A DNA stretch of 55,871 bases. Origin: Akkermansia muciniphila. Lineage in GTDB: Bacteria > Verrucomicrobiota > Verrucomicrobiia > Limisphaerales > BJHT01. Below are positions 7,914 to 49,190 of this stretch, in pieces. Made by a program: the position numbers and the translations under genes. Every line of letters begins with the position of its first letter. Positions within the stretch are counted from its first letter, which is position 1. The stretch is taken from contig CAMAUZ010000050.1 in the NCBI GenBank assembly GCA_945861535.1, positions 1 through 55,871 of the forward strand. The letters are read 5' to 3'. Below the pieces are notes generated by a model. The model ran no database searches and was not told the origin of the DNA. It saw only the letters and a list, made by a program, of their open reading frames with translations.

Positions 7914-7983
7914 AACCGAGCAAGCGGGCACTCCCCCGAGCGAGCGCACCAAGACCCGCACCCGCGCTTTTCCCGTCTGGCCC

Positions 7984-8032
7984 TTGTCCCTTGCACCTTC
8001 CCTTGAGCTTTGAGCTTTATGCTTTGAGCTTT
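7984..8032 (+). repeat. Heptamer array H1
   Basis: Seven consecutive 7-bp units: TTGTCCC, TTGCACC, TTCCCTT, GAGCTTT, GAGCTTT, ATGCTTT, GAGCTTT. It lies just upstream of the TcdA-like gene and is the only array of this family in the window without an inverted partner. Confidence 0.85.
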
Positions 8033-8050
8033 CCCCCCGAACTTTTCGCC

Positions 8051-19730: not shown

Positions 19731-21434
19731 ATGAAACGATTGCTCTCCCTCTTTGCGTCCTTTTGCGTTCTTTGCGGCCAATCCCCTGCGGCCGATGCCC
19801 CGCCCATCCGCGTGCTCGTCTGGGACGAGCAGCAGCCGGCGCAGAAGCAGGCTTACGACGGCGGTTTCCTCGGCGACACCATCGCGGCGCATCTCGCGAA
19901 GCAGCCGGGCCTCAAGGTCACGTCCGTCAATTTCGCCATGCCGAGCCAGGGTCTCTCGGACGCCGAGCTGGACGCCGCGCAGGTCATCGTCTGGTGGGGC
20001 CATGTGAAGCACGCGTTCGTCGAGCAATCGCGCGTCGAGGCAGTCGTCCAGCGGGTGCGCGAGGGCCGGCTCGCACTGGTCGCGTTGCACTCGGCGCACT
20101 GGTCGCGGCCGTTCGTGCGGCTCATGCAGGAGCGGGCCAAGGATGATGCCCGCGCGCAAATCCCCGCCGCCGAGCGCGCCACGGCGAAGTTCGAGTATTT
20201 CAACGACAACCCGCTTGGCAAAGTGCCGCGCCGGGACGCGCCGCTGACGCCGGCGCTGCGTCACGAGAACGGCGTTTGGAAACTCACCCTGCCCGGCTGC
20301 ATCTTCCCCGCCTATCGCGGCGACGGCGCGCCGAGTCATGTCACCACGCTGCTGCCCGAGCATCCCATCGCCGCCGGTTTGCCGCTGAAGTGGGACATCA
20401 ACAAAACGGAAATGTACGACGAGCCGTTCCACGTGCCCACGCCGGACGCGGTGGTGTTCGGGGAGCGATGGGACAAGGGCGAGCACTTCCGCAGCGGCGC
20501 GCTGTGGCGCGTGGGCAAAGGCGGCGTCTTTTACTACCGGCCCGGTCACGAGACTTTTCCTGTGTTCAAGCAGGCGGAAAATCTGCGCGTCGTCGAGAAC
20601 GCCGCGCGCTTCCTCGCCGCGCAATTGCCCGCTGACGCGAAGCCCGCCGCGCCCGCGAAGCCCAAGGCTGCTGCGCCCTCGGGCCGACTCGCGCTGCCGC
20701 ACACGGAGAACCTCACGATCGCCGGCCGGCCGGCCTTCATTTATTTGCCCGCACCGGAGAAGCGCACCACGCCGCAGCCGTGGATTTTCTACGGCCCCAC
20801 GCTCGCGCCGTACCCCGACCAGGCCGAGCGCTGGATGCACGAGCAGTTCGTCGCCGCGGGCATCGCGGTGGCGGGCGTGGACGTGGGCGAGGCGTATGGC
20901 AGCCCGAAGAGCCACGTCGTGTTCGATGCGCTCTATCGCGAGCTGACGGAGCAGCGCGGTTTTGCTGCGAAGCCGTGTCTCTTCGGCCGCAGCCGCGGCG
21001 GCTTGTGGACGAGCAGTTGGGCAATCACGAATCCGACGCGCGTCGCGGGCCTCATCGGCATCTATCCGGTCTATGATTTCCGCACCTACCCGGGCATCGC
21101 CCGCGCCGCCGGTGCCTACGAGCTGACACCCGAACAACTCACCGCGCGCGCCGCCGAGTTCAATCCCATCGAGCGCATCGCCGTGCTGGCCAAGGCGAAG
21201 GTGCCCGTCGCGCTCATCCACGGCGACGTGGACAGGGTGGTTCCGCTGAAAGAGAACTCGGCGGAATTGTTGCGGCGCTATCGCGAAGCGGGCGCGGAGG
21301 ATTTGGTGAAGCTCATCGTGGTGGAGGGGCAGGGGCACAACATGTTCGAGGGCTTCTTCCGTTCGCAGGCGCTGGTGGATTTCGCCATCGCCCGCGCGCG
21401 GGTGGGGGCGGGGGCGAAGAAGCTCAAAGAATAA
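19731..21434 (+). CDS. Secreted ThuA-domain / alpha-beta hydrolase fusion
   Basis: 567 residues with signal peptide (MKRLLSLFASFCVLCGQSPA). Residues about 25-300 form a ThuA-like (trehalose-utilisation, class-I amidotransferase fold) domain: IRVLVWDEQQPAQKQAYDGG, AQVIVWWGHVKHAF, LALVALHSAHWSRPF and YRPGHETFPVF. After a Pro/Ala linker (about 305-325), residues 330-560 form an alpha/beta hydrolase. It has nucleophile elbow FGRSRGG, acid in HGDVDRVVP and His in GQGHNMF, a complete Ser-Asp-His set. Normally these are separate proteins; fusion implies that the two act on one substrate, plausibly a carbohydrate derivative. The last codons (KKLKE, stop 21432-21434) are read out of a heptamer repeat array, so the C-terminus has been remodelled by the repeat. 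Confidence 0.85.
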   Translation: MKRLLSLFASFCVLCGQSPAADAPPIRVLVWDEQQPAQKQAYDGGFLGDTIAAHLAKQPGLKVTSVNFAMPSQGLSDAELDAAQVIVWWGHVKHAFVEQSRVEAVVQRVREGRLALVALHSAHWSRPFVRLMQERAKDDARAQIPAAERATAKFEYFNDNPLGKVPRRDAPLTPALRHENGVWKLTLPGCIFPAYRGDGAPSHVTTLLPEHPIAAGLPLKWDINKTEMYDEPFHVPTPDAVVFGERWDKGEHFRSGALWRVGKGGVFYYRPGHETFPVFKQAENLRVVENAARFLAAQLPADAKPAAPAKPKAAAPSGRLALPHTENLTIAGRPAFIYLPAPEKRTTPQPWIFYGPTLAPYPDQAERWMHEQFVAAGIAVAGVDVGEAYGSPKSHVVFDALYRELTEQRGFAAKPCLFGRSRGGLWTSSWAITNPTRVAGLIGIYPVYDFRTYPGIARAAGAYELTPEQLTARAAEFNPIERIAVLAKAKVPVALIHGDVDRVVPLKENSAELLRRYREAGAEDLVKLIVVEGQGHNMFEGFFRSQALVDFAIARARVGAGAKKLKE

Positions 21435-21475
21435 AGCTCAAAGCTCAAGGGAAGGACCAAGCTCGAAGGATCAAA
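21420..21475 (-). repeat. Heptamer array H2, overlapping a gene end
   Basis: Eight 7-bp units (AAGCTCA, AAGAATA, AAGCTCA, AAGCTCA, AGGGAAG, GACCAAG, CTCGAAG, GATCAAA), the reverse complement order of H1. It supplies the stop codon of the ThuA fusion gene and pairs with H3 in inverted orientation. Confidence 0.88.
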
Positions 21476-21530
21476 TATTTTCCGTAGCGGTCGGTGACGG
21501 ACCGGGCAGGTGTGGAGGGCCTCGGCGCGA

Positions 21531-21630
21531 AGGGAGCGCGGCATTTCTGCCGCTTCAAGGTGGAACGCTCCGGGCGCGGACGGACGCGGTATGACGTGCG
21601 GACGGTGAAGCGGCGTAAACGCCGCGCCCC
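21531..21630. repeat. Palindromic element of the GGAGCGCGG family
   Basis: Left arm GGGAGCGCGGCATTTCTGCC (21531 on) and right arm GAAGCGGCGTAAACGCCGCG (21607 on) are imperfect inverted repeats. It lies between heptamer arrays H2 and H3. Confidence 0.75.
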
Positions 21631-21650
21631 CCAGCCCCGCCTTGGCCGGC

Positions 21651-21699
21651 TTGGTTCTTGTCCCTTCCCTTGAGCTTTAAACTTTATCCTTTGAGCTTA
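21651..21699 (+). repeat. Heptamer array H3
   Basis: Seven units: TTGGTTC, TTGTCCC, TTCCCTT, GAGCTTT, AAACTTT, ATCCTTT, GAGCTTA. Inverted partner of H2, abutting directly the palindromic element at 21698. Confidence 0.88.
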
Positions 21700-21876
21700 G
21701 CCGTGACTATGCAGCAGGAGCGCGGCCTTCAGGCCGCAGAGGCGTGGGAACTGTATGGGGCGAGCGATTTTCCAGACTCCTTTTCGGACTCACCATAGGG
21801 TGAGTGGAGGTCCGCGTTCGGGTTGTTTGGAACGTTCGCTGCGGATGAACGTTTCTGCGGCCTGAAGGCCGCGCTC
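21698..21876 (+). repeat. Palindromic element, copy A (right end lost at intron)
   Basis: 179 bp, starting TAGCCGTGACTATGCAGCAG and ending at ...CCGCGCTC where the group II intron begins. By hand alignment it matches the reverse complement of 23358-23536 over its whole length with about 8 differences. Both GCGGCCTTCAGGCCGC-type hairpins are intact. Confidence 0.9.
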
Positions 21877-22339
21877 GTGCGCCTGAGAAGGCGGGAAGAC
21901 AGAGCGGTGGAAGTCCGCTCCTGTGCGGTGAAGAACCGTGCGGTATCGAACCGTAACTGCGTCGTGGCAACACGGGGTGGAGAGCAACGGAACGAGAACG
22001 ACCAGTCCGTAATACAGGCTGTCCGGTGGACAGTCGTCGTGAACTCGATTCGGTCGGTGTGGACGGGCGAGCCTTCGAGCGAGTGGCGAAGCCTGTAAAC
22101 GGACGTGAGGCGCAGAGCCGAAACGTCGAGCAGCCGGGCGATCCCCGGTCGTCGCACCGATGGTTGGAGACGGAATGGCCGGAAGTCCTCCTGCGATAAT
22201 CAGGGAGGCCCGTCGGGGACAAGCGGTGTTCATGCCGCCCGCGAGGGTGCGAAGAGCCGCCCGGCGGGAGTCAGAGCGTCCGTAGTAGCTGCGAAGCGGG
22301 TAACGACCGTGGAGCCAAGGGACGCAGGAAAGTGGATGC
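21877..22339 (+). ncRNA. 5' part of a group II intron ribozyme
   Basis: Starts GTGCGCC, matching the GUGYG consensus of group II intron 5' ends, immediately after a palindromic hairpin. The 463 nt to the RT start are rich in pairing segments typical of domain I (GTGCGCCTGAGAAGGCG, GTGGAAGTCCGCTCC and others). No domain V/VI sequence is found downstream, so this half cannot splice on its own. Confidence 0.8.
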
Positions 22340-23527
22340 GTGAAAAGACAGAACGACGACGCACAACCGGCGTCAGTGGCGGCAACGCCTCAACAAGCCG
22401 GAGACGCCCAGCCGCCACGCGAACCGTGGGGGTGGGTGGAACGTACGGTCTGGACCGAGCGCATGTTGACGCGGCTCACGACGGGTGAGTCAGCAGGCCG
22501 GGTCTGGTTCCGACTGTGGGACAAGACTTACCTGCCTGCCAATCTGGCCAGTGCCTTTCACAAGGTCTGGAAGAACGGCGGGAGCGCGGGGGCGGACGAG
22601 CAAACCGTGGCGCACTTCGGGCGGAGTGCTGAAGCAGAACTTCAGCGGCTGCACGAACAACTGCGCGACGGGGCGTATCAACCGCAACCGGTACGGCGGG
22701 CTTGGATCGCCAAGCCCGGCAGCAAGGACAAGCGCCCGCTGGGCATTCCAGCGGTGCGTGATCGCATCGTGCAAGGCGCGTTGCGGCACGTTCTGGAACC
22801 GATCTTCGAGGCGGAATTTGCCGAGCATAGCTACGGCTTCCGACCGGGGCGCGGGTCCAAGGACGCGCTGCGGCGTGTGGACACGCTGCTGAAGGCGGGC
22901 CATGTCTGGGCGGTGGACGCCGATCTGAAAAGCTACTTCGACACGATCCCCCACGAACGCCTGCTCGCTCTGGTGACGGAGCGCGTGGCTGACGGCCGGG
23001 TGGTGGCGCTGGTGGAGCGATTCCTCCGGGCCGGGGTGTTGGAGGAGAATGAAGATTGGCGACCGACCGAGTGTGGCACGCCCCAAGGCGGCGTCATCAG
23101 CCCGCTGCTGGCGAACCTGTACCGCAATCCGTTGGACCACCAAATGGCGGCGGCGGGCTGGGAGCTGGTGCGCTACGCGGACGACTTCGTGATCGTGTGC
23201 CGGACGGAAGCTGAGGCCCGCAAGGCGTTGGCGGAAGTCAGTGCGTGGGTGAACGAGGCGGGGCTGACCCTGCATCCTGAAAAGACGCGCGTGGTGGACG
23301 CGAGTGCGCCCGGAGGCTTTGACTTTCTCGGGTATCACTTTGCAGTGAGGGCGACAGGAGCGCGGCCTTCAGGCCGCAGCAACGTTCATCCGCAGCGAAC
23401 GTTCCAAACCACCCGAACGCGGACCTCCACTCACCCTATAGTGAGTCAGAAAAGGAGTCTGGAAATTCGCTCGCCCCATACAGTATCCACGCTTCTGCGG
23501 CCTGAAGGCCGCGCTCCTGCTGCATAG
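22340..23527 (+). pseudogene. ltrA: Group II intron reverse transcriptase lacking maturase domain
   Basis: 395 codons from GTG 22340 (AGGAAAG 11 nt upstream; an overlapping ATG is out of frame). Residues about 60-330 are a complete reverse-transcriptase domain: RPLGIPAVRDRIVQGAL, SYGFRPGRGSKDAL, VDADLKSYFDTIPH, CGTPQGGVISPLLANLY and the catalytic YADD at 279-282. Thumb-like KTRVVDASAPGGFDFLGYHF follows. After residue 333 (base 23341) the frame runs into palindromic repeat copy B. The last 60 or so residues are therefore repeat-encoded, and domain X and any endonuclease domain are missing. The polymerase active site is intact, so activity as a polymerase cannot be excluded, but intron mobility and splicing should be lost. 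The QGG motif argues against a diversity-generating retroelement. Confidence 0.88.
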
Positions 23528-23536
23528 TCACGGCTA
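23341..23536 (-). repeat. Palindromic element, copy B, inverted relative to copy A
   Basis: 196 bp from TGCAGTGAGGGCGACAGG to TAGTCACGGCTA. Compared with the complete copy at 42000-42216, the outermost part of the left end is missing at the junction with the RT gene. Copies A and B form 179-bp inverted repeats around the intron remnant. Confidence 0.9.
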
Positions 23537-23559
23537 ATTACTTCCCCAAAAAACCCCTC

Positions 23560-29583: not shown

Positions 29584-29693
29584 CAGGGGGGCGTTGACCC
29601 GGCACGCACGCTAGGGGCAATCCACGGATTTGCCAAGAAACCCACCGCGCCGGGAATGGTGGGCAACGCGGGCGACGCGGCCGCCCGCGGGCG

Positions 29694-29749
29694 GAAGCTC
29701 CAAGGACAAAGCTCAAAGCTCAAGGGAAGCACCAAGTATCAAGCTTCAA
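29694..29749 (-). repeat. Heptamer array H4
   Basis: Eight units: GAAGCTC, CAAGGAC, AAAGCTC, AAAGCTC, AAGGGAA, GCACCAA, GTATCAA, GCTTCAA. Inverted partner of H5; they bracket 73 bp. Confidence 0.88.
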
Positions 29750-29822
29750 ACTGCGCTCGGCGATTGGCCCGGGCGGACCAGCGACACACACCATTACAAA
29801 GTTCCAAACTCACCCGGATGCG

Positions 29823-29878
29823 TTGGACCTTGCTGTTTGCTGCTTCCCTTGAGCTTTGAACTTTGAGCTTTGAGCTTC
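29823..29878 (+). repeat. Heptamer array H5
   Basis: Eight units: TTGGACC, TTGCTGT, TTGCTGC, TTCCCTT, GAGCTTT, GAACTTT, GAGCTTT, GAGCTTC. Ends 34 bp before the (convergent) stop of the CbiX-like gene. Confidence 0.88.
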
Positions 29879-29912
29879 CCGCAGAAAACTCGTTTCCCTC
29901 CGCAGCGTTGAT

Positions 29913-32499: not shown

Positions 32500-33173
32500 A
32501 CCGTGTTTATCTATGCAGGGGAAACCGCCGAGAAGAACACCGAACGACGAAGCCGCAGCCCAAGCGGAGCGCGATCGGTCTCCGGTCGCAGCGGCGAAAT
32601 CGGTGCCGGGGCGCGACGAGTATTCAGCACCGTCGTGCGGCCACGGCCGCACCTCCGCCGTCCCGGAGGGACGCCGGAGGAGATTAGCCGGGGGCAAGTC
32701 CGCCGCAGCGGACGCCGCCCCCGGAAACGGTCACGAGTGGCTCCATGCCCCAGCGGGGCATCGAAGAAATTATCCGCGATGTTGGGCGAGCACTGGCGGC
32801 TCGACCTGCCCGAGGCGACGGGCTGTGGCGGGGATGCTGGAGGAAGACAGCCCCGAAGAATTTCTCCGATGCCCCGCTGGGGCACGGCTCGTGCGGCGTG
32901 ACCACCGGGGGCCGCGCCCGCTCACGCGGGCTTGCCCCCGGCTAATTTCCTGCGGCGTCCCTCCGGGACGAAGGGGCGGTACGCCCTGTCACAACAACGC
33001 CGCAAACTCCTCACCGGTCGCGAGGATTTCACCGTTGCACGGGACGTCCCGCCCGGCCCGCCGCCAATTCCTCCCCTCCCATTCCTTTGCCCCAAATTCC
33101 CCTGGCAACTCGTCCCTGTTCGCCAACCGCGGTACTCCGCCCGCGCCCGCCCGATTGAATAGCCCCTGCTAAC
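32500..33173. repeat. Gap with 310-bp stem-loop element
   Basis: Element 32660-32969: left arm from GTCCCGGAGGGACGCCGGAG, with ATTAGCCGGGGGCAAG, is mirrored by CTTGCCCCCGGCTAATTTCC and GCGTCCCTCCGGGAC. Inside, CCCCAGCGGGGCATCGAAG (about 32750) is mirrored near 32865-32883. It is homologous to 48708-48981. The rest of the gap shows no gene. Confidence 0.85.
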
Positions 33174-37747: not shown

Positions 37748-37756
37748 GGCGCGGGG

Positions 37757-37819
37757 AAAGCTCAAAGAATAAAGCTCAAAGCTCAAGGGAAGGTCCAAGG
37801 GACAAGCGGGTCCAAGGAC
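37757..37819 (-). repeat. Heptamer array H6
   Basis: Nine units: AAAGCTC, AAAGAAT, AAAGCTC, AAAGCTC, AAGGGAA, GGTCCAA, GGGACAA, GCGGGTC, CAAGGAC. Starts 9 bp after the ALDH stop; inverted partner of H7, bracketing about 300 bp. Confidence 0.88.
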
Positions 37820-37887
37820 CAACCCGAGCGGTCAGGCGGATTGCGGGCGCAGCTCAGTTCTTTGCACCGATTGATCTGCGGTGGCGC

Positions 37888-38078
37888 AGTCCCGCAGGGA
37901 CGACCGAAAATAGCCCAGCACTTCAGTGCTGGGTCTGCGGCCGGTGAACCGGCAAGTCCCGGCAGGGACGACAGCGGCGGCACAGCGCGCGGTTTCTTTC
38001 GTCCCTACCGGGACTCGGTTCGGTCCGCTGCGAACCCCGCGCTAAAGTGCCGGGCTATTGTCTTTCGCCCTCCGGGCT
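37888..38078. repeat. Stem-loop element between H6 and H7
   Basis: AGTCCCGCAGGGACGACCGA with AATAGCCCAGCACTTCAGTG on the left is mirrored by GCGCTAAAGTGCCGGGCTAT on the right. Internal hairpins AGCACTTCAGTGCT and GTCCCTACCGGGAC. This type is nested inside the heptamer pair. No gene in 37748-38232. Confidence 0.75.
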
Positions 38079-38122
38079 GGGGCTGGGAACCCGACCCCGT
38101 GAAAAAAATGAGATGCGCGTTT

Positions 38123-38171
38123 TTGGCGCTTGGCCCTTCCCTTGAGCTTTGAGCTTTAATCTTCGAGCTTT
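38123..38171 (+). repeat. Heptamer array H7
   Basis: Seven units: TTGGCGC, TTGGCCC, TTCCCTT, GAGCTTT, GAGCTTT, AATCTTC, GAGCTTT. Ends about 60 bp before the first thymidylate-kinase-like gene. Confidence 0.88.
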
Positions 38172-38232
38172 TTCCGTCCCGCCTCCCGCAAAAAGGATTG
38201 TCACCCCCCTCCCGCTTCCGCACCTTGACCGC

Positions 38233-38922
38233 GTGTTGAAGACATTTTCAGAACTCGGTTTTCCCGGGCGCCTGATCGCCGTCGAGGGGCTGGATGGTTC
38301 CGGCAAATCCACGCAAATCTATCTCCTCAAACGCTGGCTCGAGCAGCAGGGGCTGAAGGTTTTTTTCAGCGAATGGAATTCCTCCGAGCTGGTGAAAAGC
38401 GCGACCAGCAAGGGTAAAAAGACCCAGCTCCTCACGCCGACCACCTTCAGCCTGATCCACGCCACGGACTTCGCCGACCGCTACGAACGCCAGCTCGTCC
38501 CGCTCCTGCGCGCCGGTTATCTCGTGCTGTGCGACCGCTACGTGTTCACCGCCTACGCCCGCGACATTGTCCTCGGCTGTCCCCGCGACTGGGTCCGCGG
38601 CCTCTACGATTTCGCGGCGCTGCCCGACCTCACGTTTTTCTTCAAGGCCCGCCTCGAGGTCTCGCTCCAGCGCATTCTCGACGGCCGGCCCGAGCTGAAA
38701 TATTTCGAGGCCGGCATGGACCTCGGCCTGTCGAGCGATCCCTACGAAAGCTTCCGCATCTTCCAGGGCCGGATGCTCGAGCAATACCTCGCCATGAGCA
38801 CCGAGTTCAAATTTCTCGGCATGGATGCCAACCAACCCGTCGAGCCGCAGCAGGCCGTCGTCCGCCAGTTGGTCGCGGCGCGGATCGACCTCGGCGCGTT
38901 CGCCATGGGAAAAAAAGCCTGA
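38233..38922 (+). CDS. Thymidylate-kinase-like P-loop kinase, paralogue 1
   Basis: 229 residues from GTG 38233 (TTG 38236 alternative); longer starts would read through heptamer array H7. P-loop IAVEGLDGSGKSTQ, base-binding region CDRYVFTAYARDI (the DRY-x-x-x-x-AY signature of dTMP kinases, with Ala for Ser/Tyr) and TFFFKARLEVSLQRIL. Unusual for dTMP kinase: the LID region (RPELKYFEAGMDLGLSSDPY) lacks the usual arginine cluster. Expected reaction is ATP-dependent phosphorylation of dTMP or a related nucleotide. It lies 28 bp upstream of a second, divergent paralogue; see findings. Confidence 0.85.
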   Translation: MLKTFSELGFPGRLIAVEGLDGSGKSTQIYLLKRWLEQQGLKVFFSEWNSSELVKSATSKGKKTQLLTPTTFSLIHATDFADRYERQLVPLLRAGYLVLCDRYVFTAYARDIVLGCPRDWVRGLYDFAALPDLTFFFKARLEVSLQRILDGRPELKYFEAGMDLGLSSDPYESFRIFQGRMLEQYLAMSTEFKFLGMDANQPVEPQQAVVRQLVAARIDLGAFAMGKKA

Positions 38923-38950: not shown

Positions 38951-39775
38951 ATGAAACGCCCCGCCCGCCCCGCAAAAATTTCCGCCGTGGTACCTGCGCC
39001 ATCCGCGCCGTCCGCCCGTCCCGCAGCATCCGCACCCGCGCCCGCGCCCGTCCCGCCGCAAGTCTTCCTGCCCAAGCCCACGCTCAAGCGCTTCTACGGC
39101 CACGGCATCACCGGCGTGGACCTCGAGAAACTCGCCGGCAAACTCGTCGTCATCGAGGGCGCCGACGGCTCCGGCCGCTCGACGCAAATCGCCAAGCTCG
39201 TCGATTGGCTCGAGGTCAGCGGTCACGCGACCGTGCAGGTCGGTCTCAAGCGCTCGACGCTCGTCAGCGAGGAGCTCGACCAGGCGCAGAAGGGCAACAT
39301 TCTCAGCCACACGACCATGGCGCTCTTCTACGCCACCGACTTTGCCGATCAGCTCGAGAACATCATCCTTCCCTCCCTGCGCGCCGGTTTCATCGTGCTG
39401 GCCGACCGCTACATCTACACGCTCATGGCCCGCGCGATGGTCCGCGAATTGGATGAAGCCTGGCTGCGCAATCTCTATGGCATCGCCCTGGTGCCCGACG
39501 CCGTCATCTACCTCAACCTCTCCCCCGAACATCTCGTCCAGCGCAACTTCGCCAAGACCCACTCCCTCGACTACTGGGAGAGCGGCATGGACCTCGGCTT
39601 CTCTCGCGATCTGTTCGACAGCTTCCTGAAGTACCAGGACCTCGTTGCCCAACGCTTCAACCGCCTCCAGGCCATCTACGGATTCGAGATCATCAACGGC
39701 AACCGCAGCCCCGAGGAAATCCATCTCGAACTCCGGCAGAAAGTCGCCGCCGTTCTCGCCGGCCGCCCCGGCTGA
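38951..39775 (+). CDS. Thymidylate-kinase-like P-loop kinase, paralogue 2
   Basis: 274 residues from ATG 38951. A Pro/Ala-rich leader of about 60 residues precedes the kinase core: P-loop LVVIEGADGSGRSTQIAKLV, ADRYIYTLMARAMVRELD and VIYLNLSPEHLVQRNFA. The LID region (LDYWESGMDLGFSRDLFDSF) shares ESGMDLG/EAGMDLG with paralogue 1, which shows that the two descend from one gene and form a distinct subfamily rather than a housekeeping tmk pair. Same operon as paralogue 1, ROK kinase and Ppx (gaps 28, 39 and 159 bp). Confidence 0.85.
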   Translation: MKRPARPAKISAVVPAPSAPSARPAASAPAPAPVPPQVFLPKPTLKRFYGHGITGVDLEKLAGKLVVIEGADGSGRSTQIAKLVDWLEVSGHATVQVGLKRSTLVSEELDQAQKGNILSHTTMALFYATDFADQLENIILPSLRAGFIVLADRYIYTLMARAMVRELDEAWLRNLYGIALVPDAVIYLNLSPEHLVQRNFAKTHSLDYWESGMDLGFSRDLFDSFLKYQDLVAQRFNRLQAIYGFEIINGNRSPEEIHLELRQKVAAVLAGRPG

Positions 39776-48609: not shown

Positions 48610-49190
48610 GACCACAGAGACACGATGAACACAGAGGAAGACGGGAGGCTGCGCTTGCAGCGAGCAGCCGCCGAGTTCCTGTTTCAGAGTATCGCCGCGC
48701 GGTTCCCGTCCCGGAGGGACGCCGGAGGAGATTAGCCGGGGGCAAGTTCGCGTCAGCGGACGCAGCCCCCGGAAACCGTGCCGCGTGGCTCCGTGCCCCA
48801 ACGGGGCATCGAAGAAAATGGCCCGGGGCGACGAGGGGCGGCGGAAATGCTGCGGCGAGGATGCCGCCAAGAAATTCTTCGATACCCCGCTGGGGCATGG
48901 TCCGTTCGGCGACGCAACCGGGGGCCGCGCCCGCTGCGCGGACTTGCCCCCGGCTAATTTCCTCCGGCGTCCCTCCGGGACAAAGAGCAAAGCGTTGGCG
49001 ACAATTTTTGGGGCTGACGGCCAGCAGCCAGGCCAGGGGAAAAATCCTCGCGGCACACGAGGATTTTGCAGAGTGGTAGTAGAGAAAAAAACGAGAGGCT
49101 GCGCCCGCAGCGAGCAGCCCCCAATCAGAGACCAAAAGCCGCCCGCCCCATTCTTTGTCTTCTCTGTGTTCATCGTGTCTCTGTGGTTAA
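48610..49190. repeat. Repeat island splitting the SGNH/MBOAT pair
   Basis: Outer brackets: octamer array 48610-48640 (ACCACAGAGACACGATGAAC...) and its inverse 49158-49190. Next layer: GGGAGGCTGCG and GAGAGGCTGCG copies. Core: stem-loop 48708-48981 (GTCCCGGAGGGAC arms with ATTAGCCGGGGGCAAG), homologous to 32660-32969. A third unit at 49041-49088 is shared with 14316-14363. No gene is visible in these 580 bp. Confidence 0.85.

Follow-up and report, generated by a model that had tools for sequence, protein, structure and literature searches.

Is a reverse transcriptase (RT) gene that lies between two inverted repeats a mobile unit, or the remainder of a broken intron? The question is raised by a locus in the window, as we call the whole stretch of 55,871 nucleotides that was analysed; here the initial annotation had seen a group II intron without its 3' end between two copies of a palindromic element, and had offered both decay and the capture of an RT by the element family as explanations. 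At this locus a class C-like group II intron, inserted in one copy of a MITE-like repeat, has lost its 3' end and is joined to a second copy of the repeat; most likely this is a case of ordinary decay and not a new mobile element. Its features, with the evidence for each in brackets, are as follows.

21696..21700, (+): CTTAG, target-site duplication on the left of element A, right partner lost (placed and formed like the 5-bp duplications around other copies)
21701..21876, (+): element A, one copy of the palindromic repeat, interrupted by the intron at its right terminal hairpin (arm alignment, family copies)
21857..21876, (+): terminal hairpin GCGGCCTGAAGGCCGCGCTC, 5' exon target of the intron (exact genome copies, control count, folding)
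21877..23340, (+): 5' part of the group II intron, 1464 nt (alignment with L083)
22340..23341, (+): RT/maturase frame, fingers and palm, 334 codons; thumb (domain X) lost (RVT_1, TIGR04416 and PDB matches)
23341..23533, (-): element B, second copy, inverted; outer end intact, terminal inverted repeat of the inner end shortened by about its first 9 nt (5-9) (arm alignment, family copies, duplication survey, sequence of the joint)
23534..23538, (+): CTAAT, target-site duplication at the outer end of element B, without its inner partner (duplication survey; the flank beyond matches G001)

The intron and its reverse transcriptase

The intron part, class C-like and on the (+) strand, begins with GTGCGCC at 21877, directly 3' of the hairpin GCGGCCTGAAGGCCGCGCTC, and ends at 23340; its 3' part is absent. 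L083, a full-length relative from a Verrucomicrobiia MAG (TGS_VER2) with a 452-aa RT and a D5 match of 52.3 bits, aligns from intron base 1 at 82% identity over 1473 columns. At gathering score, Rfam recognised no group II intron in the window, and below it gave a weak D1-D4 match within the intron (20.9 bits, E 0.75); the identification of the intron therefore rests on its RT and on L083. Domains V and VI, for which Rfam found no match in the window, are absent because this copy is truncated. L083 and L082 are intact relatives with a common 3' end, and in the relatives full-length introns, about 1.9 kb in size, follow other hairpins.

The RT domain itself is whole through block 7: RVT_1 is covered from position 1 to 205 of 205 (E 3e-41), the YADD lies at 23174-23185, and a TIGR04416 score of 336.6 bits against a cut-off of 300 places the protein in the group II RT/maturase family. 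What is missing is the maturase domain X (thumb), the window RT having 334 codons versus 452 aa in L083, while the open frame of the RT continues through element B to 23527. The best PDB matches were 5hhj (190.6 bits), 5hhl (190.4), 7uim (188.7) and 6ar1 (169.3), with LtrA (5g2x, 160 bits) below all four. 5hhj and 7uim are described as retron-type RT/group II maturase and 6ar1 as the GsI-IIC RT; the former two we take to be class C proteins of E. rectale/Roseburia. An antiviral RT was also considered and rejected, the DRT and retron models scoring far below their cut-offs. A TIGR04416 search of the genome found its only RT match in the window, and a protein search with the RT added two further fragments, both on C28.

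The RT has evolved under constraint, as far as relatives can tell: in seven comparisons dN/dS ranged from 0.21 to 0.30 (0.29 against L082 and L083, which are identical in the compared stretch; 0.21 against L084). These ratios fit purifying selection in the lineage, as judged from sequence comparison, and neither date nor judge the truncated copy. The low values would reflect the lineage before truncation; a recent use of the RT frame is compatible with them.

The site of insertion is in keeping with the class. The 45 nt 5' of the intron fold with a terminal hairpin that ends 3 nt before the junction (-12 kcal/mol when folded as DNA, z -2.56), and thus the window intron sits just after a stem-loop. 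PMC4424553 names terminators and attC sites as the places of IIC insertion, and a passage of PMC7923331 describes the stem-loop upstream of the IIC insertion site. The window copy is like these introns in its 5' junction after a hairpin and perhaps in its RT, to judge from the best solved-structure matches (5hhj, 7uim, 6ar1), but differs from them in being cut after RT block 7 and in having its target hairpin within a dispersed MITE-like repeat. Several claims of the initial annotation are borne out here: the start with GTGCGCC right after the hairpin of element A (position 21877, alignment with L083 from base 1), the RT domain with intact YADD, and the class C-type insertion after a hairpin, for which the junction hairpin, the class C-type maturases among the structures and the relatives behind other hairpins all speak. 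Two checks that it had proposed, a dN/dS analysis of the RT and a search for full-length copies with domain V, gave the ratios above and the D5 of L083.

A dispersed palindromic repeat on both sides of the RT

Over 183 nt, the two inverted arms (21697-21879 and 23355-23537) show 95% complementarity; the inverted repeat reported earlier was real, and its extent, given as 179 nt with about 8 differences, is to be replaced by these values. The arms belong to a family that is spread over the genome. With element A as the query, at least 40 long matches were found in its own 7.94-Mb genome (40 of 229 candidates were scored). The 20-nt terminal hairpin is present in 129 exact copies (65 + 64; 0 + 0 for the reversed-letter control) and the end motif CCGTAACNATNCAGT 66 times (34 + 32; control 0 + 0). 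Members of the family measure about 190-210 nt and end in terminal inverted repeats. Outside these lie target duplications of 5 bp (CTAAA, CTGAG, TTTAG and CTAAT, among others), which were exact in 9 of 16 scorable copies, compared to 9 of 240 cross-copy comparisons. For this test, 28 of 30 fetched copies were entered, giving 27 rows (L004 fell out, its right hairpin being different), and 16 were left after setting aside A, B and copies with >3 mismatches at an end. Among those set aside, L014 and L026 also have exact duplications and others (e.g., L017, L018 and L020) have none.

Hence, A and B are copies of a dispersed, MITE-like palindromic repeat: like bacterial MITEs, the family is short, non-coding and of high copy number, with terminal inverted repeats and target-site duplications. 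Palindromic repeats in a verrucomicrobium are also the subject of PMC3733652, as far as its available text goes. In a search for an autonomous parent, one longer interval on C3 was viewed by eye, and no transposase was recognised in it. Among the matches scored, A is 94% like a copy on C8 and 95% like B; A and B are therefore no special pair, and a fold-back duplication of A into B was rejected.

Could A and B nevertheless be the ends of a composite element that moves the RT gene between them? The 183-nt arms around the RT frame and the continuation of the frame through B are what such an element, or one that had captured an RT, might look like. However, a block that moved as one unit is expected to have one matching pair of duplications, and here the outer duplications differ, CTTAG at A and CTAAT at B; the inner end of B is broken as well. 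Furthermore, two other inverted copies of the repeat that lie close together (G000, C31:52306-54111) surround an unrelated, ordinary 258-aa frame without RT. Close inverted pairs (<=1.7 kb) are in mild excess, with two among 40 copies versus 0.33 expected (P about 0.045).

The arrangement was also sought elsewhere. A scan of named genomes found 152 relatives, of which 80 were kept, and an RT match was present in 15 of 57 related genomes, the window's own not counted. Inverted arms spanning the RT were seen in the window alone among 95 RT loci screened, itself included; the 94 others had no comparable arms, with at least 600 nt available on both sides in only 77 of the 95. (Eight short or own-genome fragments of L053-L081 and seven partial loci of L082-L161 at contig edges were left out of the screen.) The nearest were the arms of L150 and L153, two loci that share one sequence (86 nt at 76%), followed by short arms in L082 (39 and 23 nt) and L102 (29 nt). 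Within the own genome, a single-copy intron query returned only fragments beyond the window and no second block of A, intron and B. With neither a matching pair of duplications nor a second block, and with arms that are dispersed and have their own duplications, the capture of the RT into a composite element, as envisaged in the initial annotation, is very improbable; the search for the arrangement elsewhere that it had called for found the window only, and a single occurrence is one half of the finding that it had named as a sign of simple degradation.

The window also holds other repeats and an RNA. A second inverted repeat family, AAGCTCAAAGCTCAAGGGAAG, occurs at 21420-21698, 7983-8037, 29689-29880 and 37750-38186, and a third, GTCCCGGAGGGACGCCGGAGGA, has two copies at 32658-32973 and 48706-48985. 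An Acido-Lenti-1 RNA is found at 37888-37933 on the minus strand (60 bits, gathering 37), and a coding stretch is tandemly repeated at 38505-38770 and 39376-39641 (about 75% identical).

The joint between intron and element B

Intron and element B meet at 23340/23341, where the gene enters B in opposite orientation and loses domain X together with domains V and VI; the earlier reading of this boundary, given as 23341, holds, and the frame has 334 codons in place of the 452 aa of L083. The inner end of B begins with TGCAGTGAGGG, where whole copies of the repeat read CCGTAACTATGCAGTGAGGG, and the intron side of the joint reads TATCACTT, as in L082, L083 and L084. Missing at the joint are roughly 0.4 kb of the intron 3' part, together with the right end of A and some 9 nt of B; the loss from B is given as 5-9 nt because ACT is common to the intron side and B. 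Since the inner end of B is broken and the outer end and CTAAT are kept, the damage is located at the joint.

That B abuts the intron might also be explained if B had been inserted straight into the intron and the sequence to the right of B had been lost later. The outer end of B and its duplication, however, are intact and are followed by DNA homologous to G001, and the broken end is the inner one; we regard such a course of events as quite improbable. Improbable, too, is an artefact of assembly at repeated sequence. The genome is a draft of 169 contigs, and repeat matches begin at base 1 of C89 and at base 24 of C139, a pattern that arises when assemblies break in repeats. Against this speaks the divergence of A and B, about 5% of positions; nor is the joint itself an exact repeat of the intron and another copy.

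No DNA match to the lost domain-X stretch turned up in the rest of the genome: the query L083:3960-4440 matched only 3' pieces on C28, C44 and C66, at query positions 306-480. A transfer of the 3' half to another place was therefore rejected, the domain-X stretch being unmatched and the piece on C44 comprising only the last ~80 nt, with no adjoining repeat end. This piece (G000:C44:29113-29192; L050, L190), 93% identical to L083, is an isolated 3' end from a closely related intron and lies upstream of a gene.

In G001, the sole same-genus genome compared, the left flank of the locus matches C278 up to window position 21698 and the right flank matches C215 from 23554. The two flanks are not adjacent there, each contig runs on into another gene, and A, the intron and B are absent from both places. 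G001 has no match to the window RT protein; it contains copies of the repeat at 73-77% and, at C32:34972-35104, a 133-nt piece that is 84% like the 5' end of the intron. Since the flanks lie apart in G001, the joint may have arisen by a local deletion or may mark the place where a larger rearrangement broke the DNA. For the latter speaks that the genes adjoining the flanks in G001 are located on C62 and C42 in the window's genome and that a repeat copy adjoins the gene on C62. On the other hand, the duplication beside B differs from that beside the C62 copy, and either genome may have kept the older gene order, the comparison covering one same-genus genome. A larger rearrangement in place of a local deletion is thus a serious possibility that we put at somewhat less than an even chance.

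In sum, the locus is very probably the product of decay, in which an intron beside A, a separately inserted B and an illegitimate joint that fused both came together. We infer the following order of events. A class C group II intron would have retrotransposed beside the right terminal hairpin of repeat copy A, and B would have inserted independently, with its own CTAAT duplication, into the DNA now found on the right. An illegitimate joint, formed by a deletion or where a larger rearrangement had its break, may then have fused intron position 1464 to the inner terminal repeat of B. Lost with it would be the thumb (domain X) and, of the ribozyme, the 3' part of domain IV and all of domains V and VI, as well as the right end of A and ~9 nt of B. 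Lacking the catalytic domain V and the RT thumb, the remnant can presumably neither splice nor move. An RT frame that has stayed open and conserved as far as the joint and the mild excess of close inverted repeat pairs speak against decay; the dispersed arms with their own duplications, the broken inner end of B and full-length relatives without such arms speak for it, and with it for the first of the two explanations in the initial annotation. Most copies of bacterial group II introns are truncated (PMC4424553, in the part accessible to us). As a broken intron copy, the locus is ordinary, and inverted repeats around an RT gene need not be a mobile unit.

Repeat hairpins as sites of intron insertion

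The same repeat family has received another intron. At G000:C17:82293-83165 (L030, 1501-2375), an ORF-less group II intron of 685 nt lies precisely after the terminal hairpin, GGCCGCGCTC, of another repeat copy. It was recognised by Rfam (RF02001, 80.3 bits; RF01998, 38.2; RF00029, 44, the D5 match). With the intron removed in a script, the site is identical at 207 of 214 positions to an uninterrupted copy on C100. The two introns are not closely related, with a best match of 44 columns (E 0.17). The repeat copy on C17 is oriented opposite to A, and since both ends of the element carry an identical outward hairpin, the introns use the equivalent base at opposite element ends. That an unrelated intron sits at the equivalent nucleotide indicates that the repeat family supplies landing sites for hairpin-targeting introns.

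The hairpin of the repeat is one target among several. Two of the four intron 5' junctions in the genome, those on C66 and C72, follow other hairpins, also ending in GCGCTC, and of the seven matches to GGCCGCGCTCGTG, all of which were read, only those on C17 and C50 are preceded by the hairpin of the repeat. A junction hairpin was found in 5 of 6 folded 5' flanks; the C17 flank folds otherwise despite the same 20-nt hairpin. In a survey of 5' flanks, 25 of 80 loci were examined, 13 had a recognisable start, and the sequences preceding them differ. It is imaginable that in this lineage the repeat is a standing landing pad for class C introns that at least two unrelated introns have used, that its spread opens new sites and that loaded copies turn into rearrangement or deletion junctions. 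Occupation of only 2 of the 129 exact hairpins counts against a special landing pad, as do the junctions on C66 and C72 behind other hairpins, and we put this proposal forward tentatively and consider it rather doubtful.

Related precedents for this by-product of the analysis are already in print. In Pseudomonas putida KT2440, a table row of PMC1525189 gives group II introns at REPs as 2/9; the introns are alike in having a repeat as the target. There it is a REP, whereas the element targeted here measures about 190-210 nt and has terminal repeats and duplications of 5 bp. The Thiomargarita MITEtron, in the section of PMC4853749 that describes it, likewise combines an intron with a MITE, but there a group I intron carries the MITE inside. 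The literature searched, which covered few subscription papers and some sources in part, gave no report of a MITE whose terminal hairpin had taken up a group II intron. A single repeat family in which two unrelated introns sit at the equivalent base is a concrete case in which to ask how far the sites open to hairpin-targeting introns depend on dispersed repeats.
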